From Alistipes sp. (lineage in GTDB: Bacteria; Bacteroidota; Bacteroidia; Bacteroidales; Rikenellaceae): a stretch of DNA of 64,000 nt. The stretch covers positions 1 through 64,000 of the forward strand of contig JAIDUZ010000017.1 of NCBI GenBank assembly GCA_029059935.1. Reading direction: 5' to 3'. The first letter of the stretch is position 1; every line of letters starts with the position of its first letter. This document shows, piece after piece, positions 13,958 through 62,930 of this stretch. A program made the translations under genes and the position numbers. The notes below the pieces were generated by a model that was not told the DNA's origin, made no database searches, and was given only the letters and a program-made list of their open reading frames with translations.

Positions 13958-14587
13958 CTACGTGTTGATTATCAGCTTGCCTTTCACTTTGTACACCGCT
14001 TGTATGTCGTTGACACTGAGTTCTATGTCATCATAGTTCTCCTTGTCGCCGGCAACCAGGCGGAGCCGTTTTCCGCTCTCGGCGGTACGTACTATACGCA
14101 AAGTTACAATTTTTCGGCTGATAATCACGTATTCTTCACCGGGAATAATTTCATCGCGCTCCACATTTTTCAGAAATACCACCGTTCCGGCCGGCAGCGT
14201 CCGCCCCATGGCACGCCCCGAGTAGAGCATCGCCAGGTCGCAGGCTCCCAGCTGGGGCACCACGAATTCGCTTTCGGGTTCAAGATGCTGGAGATTGGCG
14301 ATTCCTTGTTCGACGTCTATATTATAATAAGGTATCTGCACCCCGCGCAGCTGTTGTTCGGCAAACATCTGCCCGTCGCCCGTCAGCAGCCACAGTTTGT
14401 CTATCTGCGGGAATTTGGCCACGATGCGCTGGGCCACATCGCGCGAAATGCCGTTGTTGCCGCGTTTTATCTGATAAAGATTCTCGCCGCGCGCCAGGCC
14501 GATATGACGGGCAAAATAGTTGGTCGACATGTTCGCCCACTTGATCACGGCCTCGATTCGCTGCCAATTATTCTGTTTTTCCCGCAT
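13958..14587 (-). CDS. Helix-turn-helix regulator with S24/LexA-like C-terminal domain
   Basis: N-terminal HTH; C-terminal S24-like GRAMGRTLPAGTVVFLKN...EEYVIISRKIVTLRIV. Confidence 0.8.
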   Translation of the reverse strand: MREKQNNWQRIEAVIKWANMSTNYFARHIGLARGENLYQIKRGNNGISRDVAQRIVAKFPQIDKLWLLTGDGQMFAEQQLRGVQIPYYNIDVEQGIANLQHLEPESEFVVPQLGACDLAMLYSGRAMGRTLPAGTVVFLKNVERDEIIPGEEYVIISRKIVTLRIVRTAESGKRLRLVAGDKENYDDIELSVNDIQAVYKVKGKLIINT

Positions 14588-15466: not shown

Positions 15467-15702
15467 GCAGATGCTTGGACGCAGCGCACGGAGAAACCGT
15501 AAGCGCGATTGATGTTGTTCAGCGGGTTCACAAGGCTCGCCTTGAATAACAGGCGCCCCGCATTGTAATTGCCGCTGGCATACGAGGACGACGACCAGGC
15601 CGTGCCCTCGTCGCCGATGCCGCCCAAGGCTCCCGTCGTGTTGTTGCGGAAGCCCGAAGCAGGCACTCCGAACGATCGCTGGATTGGATGCCGCAGAGAG
15701 GG
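15467..15702 (-). pseudogene. 236-bp cassette, copy 1: headless C-terminal FISUMP/C-type-lectin-like tail
   Basis: Encodes SFGVPASGFRNNTTGALGGIGDEGTAWSSSSYASGNYNAGRLLFKASLVNPLNNINRAYGFSVRCVQ with no upstream protein. Confidence 0.75.
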
Positions 15703-15905: not shown

Positions 15906-16091
15906 TTCGCTTCGCTCAGAATGACAGAACAAACTGCGGCCCGCACGGCTCTTGGAGCCGCCCTTACAGAAAAGGATTAATTTTGAATTGTGAATTAATC
16001 CCCTTATGGGGTCTTGACTTCGCTCATGCTCGGCAAAGCCTGCAAGCAGGCTCTGCACTCGCTTAATCGCGAAGTTGTGAATTGTGAATTG

Positions 16092-16262
16092 ATAAACCGG
16101 CTCTGCGGCAGACTGGAATGAACAGCCGGCGAGAGCGTTGAAAACTCTCGCCGGCGGATTGCTGAATCTGCCGACCACGCTGGCGCAAGCCGTGGCCTGC
16201 GTCACTCCGGGTGGCGGAACTGCTTGTATGACAGGCGAAAGCCCGGCAATGGATCGGCGCCG
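16092..16262. repeat. Hairpin + GGATTGCTGAATCT element, copy E1, abutting the ispE stop
   Basis: CGGCTCTGCGGCAGACTGGAATG...CCGGCGAGAGcgttgaaaaCTCTCGCCGG-CGGATTGCTGAATCT...CACTCCGGG. Confidence 0.75.
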
Positions 16263-16264
16263 AG

Positions 16265-17083
16265 TCAATCGTGAATCGTGTAGACGAAAGGTGTGATTTC
16301 GCGCAGGGCGTCGGCCTTGCGGCCATCGTCGAAGAGTCCGAACACCGCCGAGCCGCTGCCCGACATGGCGGCGTAGAGGGCGCCGGCGCGGAGCAAGCGC
16401 TCCTTGGCGGCGCGGATGGCGGGGCGTGCGGCGAAGACCGTGGGTTCGAAGTCGTTGGTGATGATTTCCTGCCACTCGGACAGCGGACGTCTGAGCCGCT
16501 CGGCGAGTGGTGTGTCGGGCACATGCGGCGTGATGCCGGCATAGGCTTCGCGCGTGGAGACCCCCTCGGCCGGTTTGACGATGACGATTCGCAGGCCGCC
16601 GAGGTCGATGGGGTAGGGGACGGTGATTTCGCCCTTGCCCGTGCACAACTGCGGGGTGTTGTCGATGAAGAAGGCCGTGTCGCTGCCCAAAGCGGCGGCG
16701 CAGGACGTCAGCTCCTCTTTGGACAATCGCAGGGCGAACTCCTCGTTGAGGCCCAGCAGCACGGCCGTGGCGTCGGACGAACCGCCGCCCAGTCCGGCAC
16801 CAAAGGGGATGCGCTTGTCGAGCCGGATGTCGGCGCCGTCGATGCCGTAGCGTTCGTGCATCAGCCGGAACGCCCGGATGCAGAGGTTCTGTTCGGGCGG
16901 GCAGTCGACAGCCAGTCCCTCGGCGCGGAATCCGACGCCGGCGGCCGGACGCCGCACCACCTCTATCTCGTCGAAGAGTCCGTGTACGGGAAACATGACG
17001 GTCTCCACGTCGTGGAACCCGTCGTCGCGGCGGCGCAGGACGTCGAGCCCGAGGTTGATTTTGCAGTTTGCGCGAAGAATCAT
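16265..17083 (-). CDS. ispE: 4-diphosphocytidyl-2-C-methyl-D-erythritol kinase
   Basis: MILRANCKINLGLDVLRRRDDGFHDVETVMFPV, KRIPFGAGLGGGSSDATAVL, MSGSGSAVFGLF (GHMP). Confidence 0.96.
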   Translation of the reverse strand: MILRANCKINLGLDVLRRRDDGFHDVETVMFPVHGLFDEIEVVRRPAAGVGFRAEGLAVDCPPEQNLCIRAFRLMHERYGIDGADIRLDKRIPFGAGLGGGSSDATAVLLGLNEEFALRLSKEELTSCAAALGSDTAFFIDNTPQLCTGKGEITVPYPIDLGGLRIVIVKPAEGVSTREAYAGITPHVPDTPLAERLRRPLSEWQEIITNDFEPTVFAARPAIRAAKERLLRAGALYAAMSGSGSAVFGLFDDGRKADALREITPFVYTIHD

Positions 17084-17150
17084 GATGCAAATTAAGAATT
17101 AAAAATGAAAAATTAAAAATTTTCCGGCCGATTTCCCCTACCTTTGCGTC

Positions 17151-18122
17151 ATGAAATTCCGCACTGAAATAAGGGTGGCGCCGCTGGGCACGGCCATCGG
17201 CCATGCCGACGGGGTGCTCTTCTTCGGGTCGTGTTTCGCCGATGAGATGTGCCGGCGGATGGCGTCGCTGAAGTTCCGTGCCGAGGGCAACTTCACGGGG
17301 CCGCTCTTCAATCCGGCGTCGGTGGCGGCGCTGCTGCGCCGGGCCGGAGATCCGGCTCCCGTGGCGGCGGACGAACTGCGGCAGGATGCCGACGGCTGGT
17401 GGTTCCACTACGATGCCAGCACGCTGCTGAGCGCTCCCGACCGCGAAACGGCGCTCGGACGCTGCAACGAAGCGCTCGACCGGCTCCGCACACTGCTGCC
17501 GGCGGCCCGCTGCGTGGTCGTCACGTTCGGTACGGCATGGGTCTACCGCCTCCGGGAGAACGGCCGCATCGTGGCCAACTGCCACAAGCAGCCGCAGTCG
17601 CTGTTCGAACGCGAACGGCTCGGGGTCGGGGCCATCGTGGAGGAGTGGTCGCAGCTGCTGGCCGGTCCGCTGGCGGAGAAGGAGGTGATTTTTACGGTGA
17701 GTCCGGTGCGCCACCTGGGCGACGGGCTGGAGGGCAACTCGCTGAGCAAAGCTGTGCTGCGTCTGGCTGTCGGCGAGCTGACGGAGCGTTTCGACCGGGC
17801 GCACTACTTCCCGGCCTATGAGATTCTGACCGACGACCTGCGCGACTACCGTTTCTATGCCGACGACTTGGTGCACCCCTCGCAGCAGGCGGTCGATTAT
17901 GTGTGGGAGCGTTTCGCCGAAGCGGCCCTTTCGGACGAGGCGCGGCGCTTGCTGCCTGAGGTGGAACGCCTTGCTGCCCAATGGAATCACCGCCCGCGCC
18001 GTGCCGACAGCGAAGCCTGGCTTGCACTCCGCCGCCGGACGCTGGAGCGTATGGCGGAGCTGGAGCGGAGCGCCGGAATCGACTTTTCGGAGGAGCGGGC
18101 GCAATTTAGCGGCAGCAGATAA
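17151..18122 (+). CDS. GSCFA domain-containing protein
   Basis: GVLFFGSCFADEMCRRM; VTFGTAWVY; SPVRHLGDG; DDLVHPSQQAVDYVWERF. Confidence 0.93.
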   Translation: MKFRTEIRVAPLGTAIGHADGVLFFGSCFADEMCRRMASLKFRAEGNFTGPLFNPASVAALLRRAGDPAPVAADELRQDADGWWFHYDASTLLSAPDRETALGRCNEALDRLRTLLPAARCVVVTFGTAWVYRLRENGRIVANCHKQPQSLFERERLGVGAIVEEWSQLLAGPLAEKEVIFTVSPVRHLGDGLEGNSLSKAVLRLAVGELTERFDRAHYFPAYEILTDDLRDYRFYADDLVHPSQQAVDYVWERFAEAALSDEARRLLPEVERLAAQWNHRPRRADSEAWLALRRRTLERMAELERSAGIDFSEERAQFSGSR

Positions 18123-18162
18123 CGTTAATTTTCGTATTTTTGTACTCCGGAACCGACGAACG

Positions 18163-19719
18163 ATGAAAAAACTCCTTCTGCTTCTGTTGGGGGCCTTGGG
18201 CTCCCTGCCCGTAGAGGCGGCGCGGCCGCGGCTGGTCGTGCAGATAGTCGTGGGCTCGATGCGGGCCGAAGACCTCGACCGCTATGCCATGCACCTGGGC
18301 GAAGGCGGGTTCCGACGCCTGGCGGAAGGCGGCGCGCGCTATGCCGGCGCCTGCTACGACTACCAGCAGACCACCACGCCCGTATCGCTGGCGACGCTGA
18401 CGACGGGGGCGCTGCCCTCGACCCACGGAGTCATCGGCTCGCGCTGGCAGGACTACACCGACAACAAGACCGTGTGGCTGACCGACGGCCGCCAGGGGCC
18501 GGGGCCCTATCATCTGATAGCGCCGACGCTGGGCGAGACGCTGGTGCAGCAGGTGCCGGGCAGCCGCTGCGTGACCGTGGCCGCGGAACCCGAATCGGCG
18601 GTGGTCATGGGGGGCCGCACGGACCGGGTCTACTGGCTCGACCCGCAGCACTGCGGCTGGACCACCTCCTACCATTATGCACCGGAGGTGCCCGAATGGA
18701 TCGCCCGCCGCAACCGCGAACGCTACCATCTGTCGTTCGTCGCCGAGACGTGGCGGACGCTCTACGACCGGAGCAGCTACCGCAACACGCGCCACTGGGA
18801 CATTGCGGTGACGGGGCAGGGCCGGAAGAACGGCGAGTCGGGCCCGGGCCGGCTGACGCTGGCCGACGACCGCGAACGGCTGCTCTACACGCCGGCGGGC
18901 AACACGGCGGTGCTGGACTTCGCCAAACAACTCATCGTGCAGAACAAACTGGGAGCCGATGCCGAACCCGACCTGCTGAACATCTGTCTGGATGCCTCGC
19001 GGCGCATTGTGGAGGCCTACGGACCCGAATCGGTGGAGGCGGAAGACATGTATTACCGCCTGGACCGCGACCTGGACGACTTCCTGACCTTTCTTTTTGC
19101 GCAGGTGAAGGAAGACGAGGTGCTGGTGATGCTGACCTCCGACCACGGCACGAGCCCTTCCTACGACCTGGCGGCGACGGCCGCCGACCGATTCAACGCG
19201 CGGCAGTTCGAAGTGATCGTCAACGGATTCATGAACGTGCGCTACGGTGTGGGCGACTGGGTGACGGACTATAACGAAAACTGCATTTGGCTGAACCACA
19301 ATCTGATATACGAACGAGGCCTGAACCTGGCCGAAGTGCAGAACGAAGTGGCCATCTTCGCCATGCAGTTCGGCGGCGTGTCGCACGCCCTGGCGGCGAC
19401 GGCCATGCGTACGAGCTACTTCGGGAGCGGCTATGCGCGGCGGCTGCAAAACAGCTTCTACCCGCGCCGCTCGGGCGACGTGGTGCTCAATCTGATGCCG
19501 GGGTGGATCGAGGAGCGCGACCGCTGTTCGTCGTCGTCGGGCTCGATGTACGGCTACGACACGGAGGTGCCGTTGCTCTTCTACGGCGCGGGCATCGCGC
19601 CGCAGCGCATCCGCCGGCGTGTCGACATGACTTCGGTGGCGCCGACGGTGGCGCGCCTTTTGGAGATTTCGGAGCCGGCGGCCTCGGAAGGCGACCCGCT
19701 GGAAGAGATAACGGAATAG
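18163..19719 (+). CDS. Exported alkaline-phosphatase-superfamily protein (type I phosphodiesterase/nucleotide pyrophosphatase-like)
   Basis: Signal peptide MKKLLLLLLGALGSLPVEAA; VSLATLTTGALPSTHGVIG; MLTSDHGTSP. Confidence 0.9.
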   Translation: MKKLLLLLLGALGSLPVEAARPRLVVQIVVGSMRAEDLDRYAMHLGEGGFRRLAEGGARYAGACYDYQQTTTPVSLATLTTGALPSTHGVIGSRWQDYTDNKTVWLTDGRQGPGPYHLIAPTLGETLVQQVPGSRCVTVAAEPESAVVMGGRTDRVYWLDPQHCGWTTSYHYAPEVPEWIARRNRERYHLSFVAETWRTLYDRSSYRNTRHWDIAVTGQGRKNGESGPGRLTLADDRERLLYTPAGNTAVLDFAKQLIVQNKLGADAEPDLLNICLDASRRIVEAYGPESVEAEDMYYRLDRDLDDFLTFLFAQVKEDEVLVMLTSDHGTSPSYDLAATAADRFNARQFEVIVNGFMNVRYGVGDWVTDYNENCIWLNHNLIYERGLNLAEVQNEVAIFAMQFGGVSHALAATAMRTSYFGSGYARRLQNSFYPRRSGDVVLNLMPGWIEERDRCSSSSGSMYGYDTEVPLLFYGAGIAPQRIRRRVDMTSVAPTVARLLEISEPAASEGDPLEEITE

Positions 19720-19803
19720 AACCGCCGGTTTCCCGCACCGGGGCAGCGTAGGATTCGGTCCGGACGCTGCCGGACGGAAAACCGCGAGAAAAAAGAGACG
19801 AAC

Positions 19804-20241
19804 ATGGACAAGATACAGGAAGAAATCATCGAGGAATTCTCGGTATTCGACGACTGGCTCGACCGCTACGACTATCTGATAGGTCTGGGCGAACAGGTGC
19901 CGGCCATCGCCCCGGAACACCGCACGGAACAATATGCCATCAACGGCTGCCAGTCGCGCGTGTGGGTCGATGCGCGGCAGGACGAAGCGGGCCTCGTGCA
20001 CTTCACGGCCGACAGCGACGCCATCATCACCAAGGGCATCATCGCGCTGCTGATCCGGGTGCTGAGCGGCCGGACGCCGCAGGAGATTCTGGACACGGAA
20101 CTCTACTTTGTCGACGCCATCGGTCTGAGCGCCAACCTTTCGCCGACGCGCGCCAACGGCCTGGCGGCGATGGTGAAGCAGATGCGGCTATACGCGCTGG
20201 CCTACGCCTCGAAGAACGACGCAAAAGAGAAGACGGAATGA
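19804..20241 (+). CDS. SufE family Fe-S assembly protein
   Basis: IIEEFSVFDDWLDRYDYLIGLGEQVPAI, INGCQSRVWVDAR, SPTRANGLAAMVKQM. Confidence 0.93.
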   Translation: MDKIQEEIIEEFSVFDDWLDRYDYLIGLGEQVPAIAPEHRTEQYAINGCQSRVWVDARQDEAGLVHFTADSDAIITKGIIALLIRVLSGRTPQEILDTELYFVDAIGLSANLSPTRANGLAAMVKQMRLYALAYASKNDAKEKTE

Positions 20242-20558
20242 CACCCGAAGAGATATTGAAGGTGGAGCAGGATATAGTCCTGACCCTGAAGAACATCTAC
20301 GACCCCGAAATCCCGGTCAACATCTACGACCTGGGGCTTATCTACGACATCGACTATGCGCCCGACGGCACGGTCGACATACGCATGACCCTCACGGCGC
20401 CCAACTGCCCGATGGCCGACATGCTGGTGGAGGACGTCAATGTACAGGTGGCCAAGGTGCCCGGTGTGAAGTCGGTCAACGTGGTGCTGACGTTCGACCC
20501 GGTGTGGGACCGCAGCATGATGTCGGAAGAAGCGCTGCTGGAACTCAACCTGCTGTAG
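20238..20558 (+). CDS. DUF59/MIP18 family Fe-S assembly protein (SufT-like)
   Basis: TLKNIYDPEIPVNIYDLGLIYDI, MTLTAPNCPMADMLVEDV; ATGA overlap with the SufE gene. Confidence 0.92.
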   Translation: MTPEEILKVEQDIVLTLKNIYDPEIPVNIYDLGLIYDIDYAPDGTVDIRMTLTAPNCPMADMLVEDVNVQVAKVPGVKSVNVVLTFDPVWDRSMMSEEALLELNLL

Positions 20559-20559
20559 C

Positions 20560-21678
20560 ATGGAGGCGGAGCGTGCGGGGGAACTGCTGGAGCGCCTGCG
20601 GGCCGGAGCGGCGGCGTATGCCTGCGGCGGACGGCTGGCCGCGCTGGACCCGCTGCAACGCCACGAAATCTGCACGCGTCTGGTTTTCGACCGGCTGGAA
20701 CGCAAGATGCGTCTGGTGGAGTCGCTGCACCGCGAGGCGGGCGAGAACTGGAACGTGACCTTCTATCTGCTCTATTTCCGCACGCTGGGCGATCGCAAAA
20801 ACCAGCGGGCCTATCTGGAGCTGGCGCGGCGCGTGCCCTACAAGGCGGTGCTGCGCGAACGGCTGGCGTCCCATGCGGTGGAGGCGATGCTGCTGGGGGC
20901 TTCGGGCCTGCTGGAACTCTACCGTCATGACGACCATACGCTCGACCTGCGCCGGGCGTTCGAACACCTCTCGGCCAAATACGAAATCGAGCCCATGCGC
21001 CCCGACGAGTGGGAGCTGAGCGGCATACGCCCGGCCAACCATCCGGTGCTGCGGCTGGCTCAGGCGGCGGCTTTCTTCGGGCAGGACGAATTCGTGATGG
21101 CCCGGGCCATGGCCTGCCGCACGGAGGGCGACATTCGGCAGCTTTTCTGCATCGAAGCCCCGGAGTACTGGCGCACGCATTATGTGCCGGGCGCTGCGGG
21201 CGACGAACAACCCAAGCGCCTCGGGGCGTTCAAAGCCAACATCATAGGCATCAACCTGGTGGCCATTCTTCAATTTGCCTACGGCAGCTATACCGACAAC
21301 GAGTCGCTGCGCGAGAGCGCACTGCTGCTGCTTGAGAAACTGCCGGCCGAAGAAAATCGCTACATCTTCGCCTGGCGCGACCGGGGTGTGCAGGCAGCCA
21401 ATGCGTTCGAGACGCAGGCGCTGCTGCAACTGGCCACCGAGTACTGCGCGCCGCCTGTCGAAACGGCGGCTTCTGCGGCGGAGAATGTTGCGGGGCAGGC
21501 GGAAACGTCAGCGGCAGGTGTGCTGCGTTCGCTGTGGTCCGGAAGCCGGAGAGGCTCCCGGGCGGTGTCCGCGTCGGGGGCTTCGTGCACGCCCCGCTGC
21601 GAAGAATGCCCGCTGGGGCGCCGCATTCTCCGCGAAGCCCGGGCCCTGGCCTGCCCGCCTAAGAGGCGGGATTTGTGA
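20560..21678 (+). CDS. DUF2851 family protein
   Basis: 372 aa; RLASHAVEAMLLGASGLL, GIRPANHPVLRLAQAAAF, C-terminal CTPRCEECPLGRRIL. Confidence 0.75.
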   Translation: MEAERAGELLERLRAGAAAYACGGRLAALDPLQRHEICTRLVFDRLERKMRLVESLHREAGENWNVTFYLLYFRTLGDRKNQRAYLELARRVPYKAVLRERLASHAVEAMLLGASGLLELYRHDDHTLDLRRAFEHLSAKYEIEPMRPDEWELSGIRPANHPVLRLAQAAAFFGQDEFVMARAMACRTEGDIRQLFCIEAPEYWRTHYVPGAAGDEQPKRLGAFKANIIGINLVAILQFAYGSYTDNESLRESALLLLEKLPAEENRYIFAWRDRGVQAANAFETQALLQLATEYCAPPVETAASAAENVAGQAETSAAGVLRSLWSGSRRGSRAVSASGASCTPRCEECPLGRRILREARALACPPKRRDL

Positions 21679-21978: not shown

Positions 21979-22082
21979 GAGAAATCTTGATTTTAACGGT
22001 TCACTGTCCCGTCGCTGCGGCGCCGAATGAAAAAACGGCGAAAAATTGCGGAATCCGCGATAAAACGCTATCTTTGTCCTCA

Positions 22083-22260
22083 GATTTGGTGCCCGCGTCC
22101 CCTCGGCAGGGGAGCGGGTGAAAAGGGAATCGGGTGGAAATCCCGAACAGTCCCGCTGCTGTGAAGCTCCCCGGGAGTTCCGAACATCTCAGCCACTGGT
22201 CCGCCGAGGACCGGGAAGGCTTCGGAACCGGAGCAAGTCAGAAGACCTGCCAAGTCGATT
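22083..22260 (+). promoter_or_regulatory. Cobalamin (B12) riboswitch
   Basis: AAAAGGGAATCGGGTGGAAATCCCGAACAGTCCCGCTGCTGTGA ... AGCCACTG ... GGGAAGG ... AGTCAGAAGACCTGCC. Confidence 0.95.
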
Positions 22261-22423
22261 CGATGTCGGGAAGTCCCCGTGGGATGGGCGGCCGAAGTCG
22301 TGTAAGAAACAATTGAGAACATATTGCATCCGGAGCGTTGGCGCCGGGACCCGGTGCGGTCGGAGCGGGCGTATTGCGGCCTTGCGGCGGCATCGGTCCG
22401 GGGAAACGCAGCCGGAAGAAACG

Positions 22424-26530: not shown

Positions 26531-27224
26531 CGGTCGCTGCGATTGCGGAAAAGGCGGAACCGGGCAGCCGGTTTCGCCTTGGTTTTGCAGAGCCGGTCGC
26601 TTGCGGGGAGCATTCGTCGCTGGGTTGCGGAGTTGCGGATGCTCCTGAGGTGCGGGCGTTCGGCATCGGCGCTTTTTCACGTTCGGTCTTTCGGGTGGAT
26701 TTGATTTGGGAGCGACCAGGACGGGCGCTGCTCCGCTCTCCGTTAAGGCCGGAGTTTGGGGATTGCACCGTATGTATTACTGCGAATCCGCTATTGCGAC
26801 TGGCGACATACCCTAATCAGTCCTTGCGTCTGCTTTTTACCTTTCACTTTTCACCTTTCACCTTTTCAGAGGCTGCCTTTCTGCGACCCGGAGCGGTGCG
26901 GACCATGGTTCGTGCCGGAGCGGTCGGGCAGATTCAGCGGTCCGCTGCCCCGTTCTTAACGGGGTTTTATAAACCGATACTGTTAAGGGGCAGCTATTCA
27001 TCCCAGTCTGCCGCAGAGCCGGTTTATCAATTCACAATTCACAACTTCGCGATTTAGCGAGTGCAGAGCCTGCTTGCAGGCTTTGCCGAGCATGAGCGAA
27101 GTCAAGACCCCGTAAGGGGATTAATTCACAATTCAAAATTAATCCTTTTCTGTAAGGGCGGCTCCAAGAGCCGTGCGGGCCGCAGTTTGTTCTGTCATTC
27201 TGAGCGAAGCGAAGAATCTATAAT

Positions 27225-27748: not shown

Positions 27749-27984
27749 CCCTCTCTGCGGCATCCAATCCAGCGATCGTTCGGAGTGCCTGCTTCGGGCT
27801 TCCGCGACAACACGACGGGAGCCTTGGGCGGCATCGGCGACGAGGGCACGGCCTGGGCGTCGTCCTCGTATGCCAGCGGCAATTACAATGCGGGGCGCCT
27901 GTTATTCAAGGCGAGCCTTGTGAACCCGCTGAACAACATCAATCGCGCTTACGGTTTCTCCGTGCGCTGCGTCCAAGCATCTGC
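27749..27984 (+). pseudogene. 236-bp cassette, copy 2: headless C-terminal FISUMP/C-type-lectin-like tail
   Basis: Differs from copy 1 at two positions only (AAC/GAC, TCG/GCG). Confidence 0.75.
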
Positions 27985-57909: not shown

Positions 57910-58144
57910 CAGATGCTGGACGCAGCGCACGGAGAAACCGTAGGCACGGCCGCTGTTGTCCAATGGTTTCACGTTCTCCGCGTGGCACCAAAGGTCGCTT
58001 GCTCCGGGCAGCTCCGTGGAGGCGGGGGACGACGTCCACGACGTCATGATCGTGCCGACATTGACCAAGGCTCCCGTCTCACGGAAGCGGTAACCCGCAG
58101 CAGGCGTTCTGTAGCAATCGCTGGTTTGAATGCCGCAGAGAGGG
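57910..58144 (-). pseudogene. 235-bp cassette, copy 3: headless FISUMP/C-type-lectin-like tail
   Basis: RTPAAGYRFRETGALVNVGTIMTSWTSSPASTELPGASDLWCHAENVKPLDNSGRAYGFSVRCVQ; 10 bp after the DUF45 gene stop. Confidence 0.75.
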
Positions 58145-58904: not shown

Positions 58905-59035
58905 CGAGCGTCGGTTTTTCCGCCGCTTTTTGCCGGTACAAAAAGCGGCAAAACAAAGAGTAGCGGATTGCTGAATCTACCAAACCTCGCTGACGGCAGC
59001 CGTGGCCGCCGGCACTCCGGGTCGCAGGCTGCTTT
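58905..59035. repeat. Hairpin + GGATTGCTGAATCT element, copy E3
   Basis: GCCGCTTTTTGccggtaCAAAAAGCGGC ... GCGGATTGCTGAATCTACC ... CACTCCGGG. Confidence 0.75.
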
Positions 59036-61014: not shown

Positions 61015-61938
61015 ATGCTCGTCCGTCAGACCATCAAAAAACTTGCCGCCGAAGCGGGGTTCGACCTCTGCGGGGTGGCGCCGTGCCGCCATTTGGCCGA
61101 CAGCGAGCGGCGGTTCCGTGCGTGGCTGGCCGAGGGGCGCCAGGCTTCGCTGGGTTATATGGAGCGCAATGCCGAGAAGCGCTTCGACCCCCGGCTGTTG
61201 GTCGAGGGGGCCCGTACGGCGGTGGTCTGCGCCGTGGGCTACAAGAACCGCACGGGCGAGGGCTATCCGGCCGGCCACCGGGCCAAGGTGGCGTCGTATG
61301 CCTGCAACCGCGATTATCACACTACGATTCGGGAGATGTTGCTGCGGCTCTTCGACGGACTGAGGGCGCTCCATCCGCAGCTCGGCGGGCGGGCGTTCGT
61401 CGATACGGCCCCTTTGGCCGAGAAGCAGCTGGCCGTCGAGGCAGGGTTGGGTTGGATCGGGCAGCAGTCGCTGTTGGTAACGCCCCGGCTGGGTACCTAT
61501 GTGTTGTTGGGCGAACTGTTGCTGTGCGACGAGGCCGACAGCTACGATGCTCCGCTGGCGGGTGCCGGTTGCGGAAATTGCCGTGTTTGCGTCGATTCCT
61601 GCCCGACCGGAGCCGTCGGCCCTGACCGTACGATAGATGCCGGGCGCTGCATCTCGTGCCACACCATCGAGCGCGAGCCGGCCGCGGGAGTCGACCTCCA
61701 CGGGTGGATTTTCGGTTGCGACGAGTGCCAGAGCCGTTGTCCCTACAACCGGCGGGCGCCTCTCCATGTCCATCCGGCTTTCGACCCGCTTTTCGACCCG
61801 GCGGCCATGACGCCGGACGAGTGGCTCGGGCTGACCGACGGGGAGTTCGACCGCCGTTTCGGCGCCACGCCGCTCACCCGCAGCGGCCGGGAGCGTATCT
61901 GCCGCAATATCGGCAAAGAGAAAAAGCGACTTCCGTAG
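61015..61938 (+). CDS. queG: Epoxyqueuosine reductase QueG
   Basis: FVDTAPLAEKQLAVEAGLGWIGQQSLLV; CGNCRVCVDSCPTGA; CDECQSRCPYNR. Confidence 0.96.
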   Translation: MLVRQTIKKLAAEAGFDLCGVAPCRHLADSERRFRAWLAEGRQASLGYMERNAEKRFDPRLLVEGARTAVVCAVGYKNRTGEGYPAGHRAKVASYACNRDYHTTIREMLLRLFDGLRALHPQLGGRAFVDTAPLAEKQLAVEAGLGWIGQQSLLVTPRLGTYVLLGELLLCDEADSYDAPLAGAGCGNCRVCVDSCPTGAVGPDRTIDAGRCISCHTIEREPAAGVDLHGWIFGCDECQSRCPYNRRAPLHVHPAFDPLFDPAAMTPDEWLGLTDGEFDRRFGATPLTRSGRERICRNIGKEKKRLP

Positions 61939-62172
61939 ATGCTGGACGCAGCGCACGGTAAGGGCGATCGCACGTCCCGAGAAGCCATTGAGGGGATTGA
62001 CGTTGCCTGAGTTGAAGTTCAGACCGCCCGGCGAGACGCTCCCGGATGCGTGGGGCGAGGAGGCCCAGGCGTACCCGTTCGCGCCGACGGCCGTCAAGGT
62101 GCCGTCCTCACGGTTGCGGTAGCCCGTAGCAGGATTCGGGCGCAATCGCTGGATTGAATGACGCAGAGAGGG
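61937..62172 (-). pseudogene. 236-bp cassette, copy 4: headless FISUMP/C-type-lectin-like tail, overlapping the queG stop
   Basis: NPATGYRNREDGTLTAVGANGYAWASSPHASGSVSPGGLNFNSGNVNPLNGFSGRAIALTVRCVQ. Confidence 0.75.
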
Positions 62173-62690: not shown

Positions 62691-62784
62691 CATGTCCCGC
62701 AACTCGCATCCTGCGCCCGCACGATTCTTCGAGCTACCCTTATAGAAAAAGGATTGATTTTGAATTTTGCATTCTGAATTGTGA

Positions 62785-62930
62785 ATTGATAAACCGGCTC
62801 TGCGGCAGACTGGGATGCACAGCCGCTTTTTGCCGGCACCGGAAGCGGCGGCAAGGAGCGGCGGATTGCTGAATCTACGTGCCTCTCCGGCACAGACCGT
62901 GGTCTGGGCCGCTCCGGGCATGGGAAGTCG
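62785..62930. repeat. Hairpin + GGATTGCTGAATCT element, copy E2
   Basis: GCCGCTTtttgccggcaccggAAGCGGC ... GCGGATTGCTGAATCTACG ... CGCTCCGGGC. Confidence 0.75.

Follow-up and report, generated by a model that had tools for sequence, protein, structure and literature searches.

Dispersed template repeats of a diversity-generating retroelement appear to serve a single adhesin gene in Alistipes

Diversity-generating retroelements (DGRs), of which those of Bordetella phage BPP-1 and the Bacteroides pilus tips are canonical cases, usually have one template repeat (TR) that serves one or several variable repeats (VRs) near the gene for the reverse transcriptase (RT). The Bacteroides DGRs diversify the tip pilins of type V pili (Macadangdang et al. 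2024, as cited in PMC12632263), and the survey of Yan et al. 2019 reports two TRs in Stenotrophomonas and six in Pseudomonas costantinii (PMC6642488). We analysed a 64,000-nucleotide stretch of Alistipes sp. DNA (positions 1 to 64,000 of contig JAIDUZ010000017.1, assembly GCA_029059935.1), called the window throughout, which holds four dispersed copies of a short cassette encoding a protein tail. These cassettes are very probably TR units of a DGR, each composed of an RT-7 leader RNA and a template of ~200 nt for the variable tail at the C-terminus of a single adhesin associated with fimbriae, with one VR and ~78 TRs in the genome. From the sequence, membership among the DGRs is well supported, and the combination of one target with many dispersed templates appears to be a new DGR variant with an inverted architecture. 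No precedent for such an architecture was found in the open-access literature, where six TRs were the most found for one DGR (PMC6642488) and a passing earlier mention of multi-TR arrays is possible.

The genome of the window (G000) is a metagenome-assembled genome (MAG) of 1.83 Mb in 90 contigs, 85% complete. Its DGR locus, on contig C85, presents in order the full-length target gene, an avd-like gene, a tandem array of 13 TRs, and the RT gene, the only one in the genome, directly after the last array copy. The RT carries GLPIGNLTSQ, of the [ILV]GxxxSQ type that serves as a DGR criterion, and matches the PHROG reverse transcriptase at E 1e-93; its top PDB sequence match is 8ub7 (labelled reverse transcriptase, E 6e-41), which we take to be the DGR RT of BPP-1. 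Judged by motif and PDB match, it is an RT of the DGR type. The avd-like gene (C85:14812-15225, before the array) matches Pfam bAvd at E 4.4e-9 with 37.2 bits, slightly under the curated 40. The target is a lipoprotein-like open reading frame (ORF) of 804 aa with a DUF4906 domain, whose C-terminus is the VR and which is the sole full-length protein bearing the tail in this genome; a PDB profile search with it found no relative. Since the Alistipes muris counterpart of the target gene comes after an Mfa-like fimbrillin gene, the target probably acts as an adhesin at the fimbrial tip.

At the DNA level, a search of the genome gave 45 matching places, and a profile search gave 87 full-length tails, none with an internal stop (0/87). 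Setting aside nine tails from a part of C85 that is duplicated or chimeric leaves 78 distinct TR-type copies, all headless: the 13 of the array, which has a period of ~420 bp, and 65 dispersed on other contigs, of which the window holds four. The 3' end is of the TR type, GTCCA(A)GCATC(T), in 78/78, and the reading frame is kept in all 70 tails where it could be measured (lengths 170-188, in steps of 3); around the dispersed units the signal for gene orientation is weak (longest ORFs only). Homology between VR and TR covers ~200 nt, from CCTGC(T/C)(G/A)CG to GCGTCCA, beyond which the two are told apart by their 3' ends, GCATCT after TRs and TGCGTCCA...GAGCGAGC after the VR. Exactly one VR-type end was found per genome, at the VR, in seven genomes. 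Because an RT, an avd-like gene and a full-length target stand at the array, and an RT-7 leader stands before the tails, we regard the cassette as a TR unit and not as a gene remnant.

Selection on the cassette was gauged by comparison with the related genome G081. For 41 reciprocal-best tails, the ratio of nonsynonymous to synonymous substitution rates (Ka/Ks) is 0.325 when read in the tail frame and rises to 1.14 and 1.61 when the other frames are used, and the downstream flanks of the same pairs are no more alike than random. The nine 3' bases GTGCGCTGC are invariant in 91/91 dispersed tails of 58 codons; codons within the tail vary synonymously. By these measures the tails are constrained as protein and the 3' end as DNA, so the cassette has fixed ends and a variable interior. 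In dispersed tails the NNY codons make up 0.72-0.74 at asparagine columns vs 0.60-0.62 at other columns, a mild excess that is suggestive, not proof, of an A-to-N origin of the dispersed TR diversity.

A conserved non-coding stretch 5' of each array tail matches the Rfam family RT-7 (RF03028) at E 1e-13 to 3e-18. RT-7 RNA is reportedly a candidate structured RNA from Weinberg et al. 2017. Matches number 84 in G000, 85 in G081, 24 in A. muris, 18 in G113, 43 in G160, 12 in G191 and one in G057, with none in 14 control genomes, and a tail lies downstream on the same strand in 40 of the 41 G000 matches checked. The gathering score of the family, 116.8 bits, is exceeded in G191 and G057 (125 bits); in G000 the best match has 91 bits, the array units 64-81 and the window units 39-57, with significant E-values throughout. 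Four helices gain support from an alignment of 35 array leaders, both sides having changed in at least one sequence at 27 of 38 pairs. The terminal stem beside the template has 6.59 of 8 pairs over 151 units vs at most 5.44 in 1000 shuffles, and it is held by compensatory changes, also in dispersed units with loop inserts of hundreds of bases. We propose that RT-7 RNA is the 5' leader of DGR templates. Some RT-7 matches are without a tail in the sequence examined (C85:235-419 in G000; C8:29804, C6:133490, C2:204947 and C12:73120 in A. muris); these may be solo leaders or parts of units that extend beyond that sequence.

The system is not confined to this genome. RTs of 96, 89, 88, 87 and 82% identity to that of G000 occur in five genomes of the genus, and one of 71% in G057, from another genus, which has the classic form of a single TR beside the RT and a single VR. 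Tail matches, counting arrays and dispersed TRs, number 87 in G000, about 92 in G081, 26 in A. muris, 20 in G113, 51 in G160 and 14 in G191, and in a survey of 180 genomes of the genus 35 had the tail, mostly in few copies. Tandem TR arrays were also seen outside Alistipes, in a Rikenella MAG (L215, 4065-8465, about 15 tails) and in Paludibacter sp. 221 (L223, 6353-9886, 8 tails), which makes arrays either older than the dispersed form or more widely distributed. In another Rikenella MAG (L216, 275-5566), a number of short tails whose end, CTCCAGGAATAGGGAGAGG, looks VR-type lie near few TRs, the opposite TR:VR ratio; some of these tails seem headless.

To find which template wrote each VR, the VR was aligned with the TRs of its own genome and the differences were scored by template base. 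All differences fall at template adenines for the VRs of G113 (22/22, against a dispersed TR on another contig), G081 (6/6, TR on another contig), G191 (12/12, array TR), G057 (15/15, its single TR) and Paludibacter (9/9, one of its eight array TRs); as a control, 21.7% of TR-TR mismatches are at adenine, which equals base composition. For A. muris, too, a dispersed TR aligns best as donor; 17 of the differences fall at adenines and 4 at other bases. As read from the alignment, these four all lie within the first 36 nt while the other 138 nt have 12/12 at adenines, so this VR is a mosaic, its final 138 nt having come from the remote TR. By these alignments, the VR was last written by a remote TR in three genomes (G113, G081 and A. 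muris). The 5' part of the G000 VR matches the TR at 13970 with one A-to-T change. C85:9405-12909, 3505 bp of the TR array, recurs at 17062-20566 inside this VR gene with zero mismatches, and tail homology bounds both ends. This repeat could reflect a join made in assembly or recombination of recent date; with zero differences over 3505 bp, an origin from mutagenic complementary DNA (cDNA) is unlikely. In another Alistipes MAG (L222, 5997-6189), the assembled VR has N at ~10 positions clustered in its 5' half, possibly reflecting population polymorphism.

Proceeding from what can be read in the sequence, namely the architecture, the adenine-only derivation of VRs in relatives, the constraint on coding and RNA, and the exchange between slots described below, we infer the following cycle, presumably active in G000. 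A TR unit would be transcribed, dispersed units presumably included. The RT and Avd, guided by the leader and by the invariant 3' end GTGCGCTGCGTCC, the putative priming site, would make cDNA with random bases at template adenines, and this cDNA would replace the tail of the single VR gene. Any TR could act, and conversion might span just the 3' part of the VR; with both, the adhesin tip would be diversified in three ways: by template choice, by mosaic joining and by A-to-N mutation.

Several observations weigh against this picture. The exact 3.5-kb array copy joined to the G000 VR makes its last donor unreadable, and since this VR is chimeric, the claim of adenine-only writing rests on the relatives; of these, G113 and G191 are MAGs, where contig binning could mislead, while A. 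muris DSM 112343 is an isolate. Dispersed leaders fall below the Rfam gathering score and have large loop inserts, and dispersed TRs have 4.0 asparagine codons per tail vs 8.2 in array TRs. On the protein side, where a DGR target would be expected to end in a ligand-binding fold of the C-type-lectin-like kind, the target matches Pfam Fib_succ_major (FISUMP) at E 9e-5, below the cut-off, and an AlphaFold model of the C-terminus of the A. muris target was discarded at a mean predicted local distance difference test score (pLDDT) of 41.

Among the alternatives, one would keep the dispersed copies as TR units and hold them mostly inert, relics of past TR duplication, with the array TRs alone active. 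Their lower number of asparagine codons, their poorer RT-7 scores and leader loops enlarged by as much as several hundred inserted bases would fit this. We nevertheless think it improbable: of the four Alistipes relatives that have several TRs and a VR whose origin can be read, three (G113, G081 and A. muris) owe their present VR to a dispersed TR as the last donor and not to the array, and the dispersed tails are under coding constraint and have kept their leader stem.

Silent-cassette gene conversion of the Borrelia vls or Neisseria pilS kind, by homologous recombination into an expression site and without an RT, is very unlikely. It accounts well for one expression site with many silent copies, for the mosaic VRs of A. 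muris and G000 and for the exchange of cassettes among slots, and the exact 3.5-kb array duplication in the VR resembles ordinary recombination or an assembly artefact. Against it, the differences between donor and VR fall only at donor adenines (22/22, 12/12, 15/15, 9/9, 6/6), vs the 21.7% between cassettes, these VRs are not unmutated mosaics of donor cassettes, and a DGR RT and an Avd-like gene stand at the locus. Recombination could nonetheless have a part in the mosaics and in slot exchange.

The sites themselves were compared between G000 and G081 at 19 dispersed positions where both flanking genes are orthologous. The same tail is kept in 10 of these syntenic slots (84-90% identity), and an unrelated tail is found in the other 9 (51-68%). 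Displaced tails turn up at other sites, with 82-96% identity in the clearest cases; the G000 tail at C72:14916, for instance, is 96% identical to that at G081 C7:108263. Slots thus appear stable with their contents exchanged, either by RT-made cDNA or by recombination. An independent mobile element derived from a DGR tail, similar to a miniature inverted-repeat transposable element (MITE), would explain the high copy number, the scattered sites and the AT-rich repeats in the leader loop. Such an element is hard to reconcile with 10 slots that hold the same tail and 9 that hold another in the same place, i.e. with stable sites and moving contents, and neither a terminal repeat nor a target duplication came to light, no systematic search having been made for them; we give it very little credence.

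With the cassettes taken as TR units, a further and tentative step, which we consider possible though on balance doubtful, is that the dispersed TRs form a heritable, renewable library. Their fixed slots would be overwritten by cDNA from the same RT (TR-to-TR or VR-to-TR homing), so that successful variants would be stored and could be brought back later into the one expressed adhesin. The 9 of 19 slots with unrelated tails, the displaced tails that turn up elsewhere, the fewer asparagine codons in dispersed tails and the mild NNY excess agree with it, and ordinary recombination between slots may be the alternative. Were this archive real, a memory based on reverse transcription would be joined to a mutator.

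That each copy is the decayed remainder, at the 3' end, of what was once a full-length gene for a surface protein, as tails without a preceding N-terminal coding region and differing flanks might suggest, is scarcely credible given no stops in 87 tails, no frameshifts in 70, a Ka/Ks of 0.325, a structured RNA leader where gene remnants would be expected, and ends that are all TR-type and none VR-type. The earlier note, made from the window alone, had offered such decay as its alternative, and the open frames, the Ka/Ks of 0.33, the presence of an RT and the exchange of contents between syntenic sites all contradict it. Its first idea, a dispersed store of VR-like or TR-like tails able to feed full-length genes, is supported by the DGR RT, the avd-like gene, the TR array, the one target and the adenine-only writing in relatives; it had proposed looking for an RT with a TR and for a full-length gene ending in the same tail, and the genome contains them all. 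Its other suggestion, a mobile cassette, lacks support at the level of whole units, about half of the comparable slots looking fixed in position with changed contents. New here are the nature of the units as templates with a conserved RNA leader and the single target that about 78 of them serve.

The four window copies, each a single open frame with a tail of the type P(A/S/T)xG(Y/F)R....G(A/T)L...VRCVQ, are as follows. Copy 1 (15467..15702, - strand) comprises the template repeat and the last ~40 nt of its own leader, with the tail ...PASGFRNNTTGALGGIGDEGTAWSSSSYASGNYNAGRLLFKASLVNPLNNINRAYGFSVRCVQ and the TR-type 3' end GTCCAAGCATCT. Its RT-7-like leader lies at 16048..16211 (-; RF03028, E 1.3e-10), with a terminal stem TGCCGCAGAG / CTCTGCGGCA and a loop that holds an insert of ~0.35 kb. 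Copy 2 (27749..27984, +), in another intergenic slot, is 99% identical to copy 1, differing at two sites (one A/G, one G/T), and has its leader 5' at 26887..27071 (+; E 9.6e-6). Copy 3 (PAAGYRFRETGALVNVGTIMTSWTSSPASTELPGASDLWCHAENVKPLDNSGRAYGFSVRCVQ; 57910..58144, -) has its leader 5' at 58946..59021 (-; E 1.4e-5) and occupies a slot syntenic with G081 C5:120522, where the tail is another one; it is copy 4 (PATGYRNREDGTLTAVGANGYAWASSPHASGSVSPGGLNFNSGNVNPLNGFSGRAIALTVRCVQ; 61937..62172, -; leader 5' at 62762..62918, -; E 8.5e-7) that is 82% identical to the tail at G081 C5:120522, the slot orthologous to that of copy 3. All four leaders match RF03028 under its gathering score, and AT-rich AATTGTGAATTCTGAATT repeats occur in the leader loops of the window.

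For these copies, the coordinates, strands and lengths (236, 236, 235 and 236 bp) given by the earlier note were reproduced. Its count of four is real and too low, being 4 of 78 distinct tails in the genome. Of the fixed ends that it described, the 3' one, GTCCA(A)GCATCT, is a genuine functional boundary, the TR end, while the 5' one, CCCTCTCTGCG, corresponds to the 3' arm of the leader-RNA stem; this edge (CCCTCTCTGCGG) is that arm in the dispersed family, array units differ in sequence there, and the TR proper begins ~40 nt further in, at CCTGC(T/C)(G/A)CGGG. It was right that no N-terminal protein precedes the tails: in 4/4 copies an RT-7-like leader stands instead, 0.35-0.85 kb upstream on the same strand. 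Elsewhere in the window are a cobalamin riboswitch (22070-22268, E 1.3e-26), a sequence repeated in tandem every 77 bp where the contig begins (1-405), and hairpin-like repeats of ~46 bp (GTTGCCCGGCT...AGCCGGGCAAC) dispersed at 2665, 14915, 21933 and 39114.

If the cassettes are TR units as argued, DGR surveys limited to the RT neighbourhood would miss most of these templates. RT-7 RNA gains a proposed role, and dozens of natural template-RNA variants become available for learning what the RT recognises. Surface variation has two classic routes, the repertoire of silent cassettes and hypermutation aimed at a target, and one RT-driven system would here combine them. The genus consists of cultivable gut commensals, and template choice, homing direction and archiving become testable in A. 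muris DSM 112343.

Compared with the canonical DGRs of BPP-1 and the Bacteroides pilus tips, the system shares a DGR-clade RT, an Avd-like protein, a TR/VR pair and adenine-specific changes, as well as a target tail encoded by the 3' end of a gene for a surface adhesin, with fimbrillin-like genes alongside. It differs in having one VR with ~14-90 TRs, mostly far from the RT, and in VRs written from remote TRs. The DGRs of Yan et al. 2019 include some with more than one TR, and those have few TRs and many VRs, P. costantinii with few A-to-N changes; a genome-wide template library, a leader RNA and template exchange are undescribed there (PMC6642488). In Treponema denticola related targets likewise have different TR types, whereas the variants there occur between strains or in the metagenome of one individual, not by the dozen in one genome (PMC4891356). 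The leader before each template here matches Rfam RF03028, above threshold in two relatives; Rfam lists the family as a small RNA, while here it would be a DGR template leader with ~84 copies in one genome. Finally, Borrelia vls and Neisseria pilS have in common with this system one expression site, an array of silent tails and mosaic expressed sequences, and they differ from it in working by DNA recombination, with neither reverse transcription nor adenine-only mutation.
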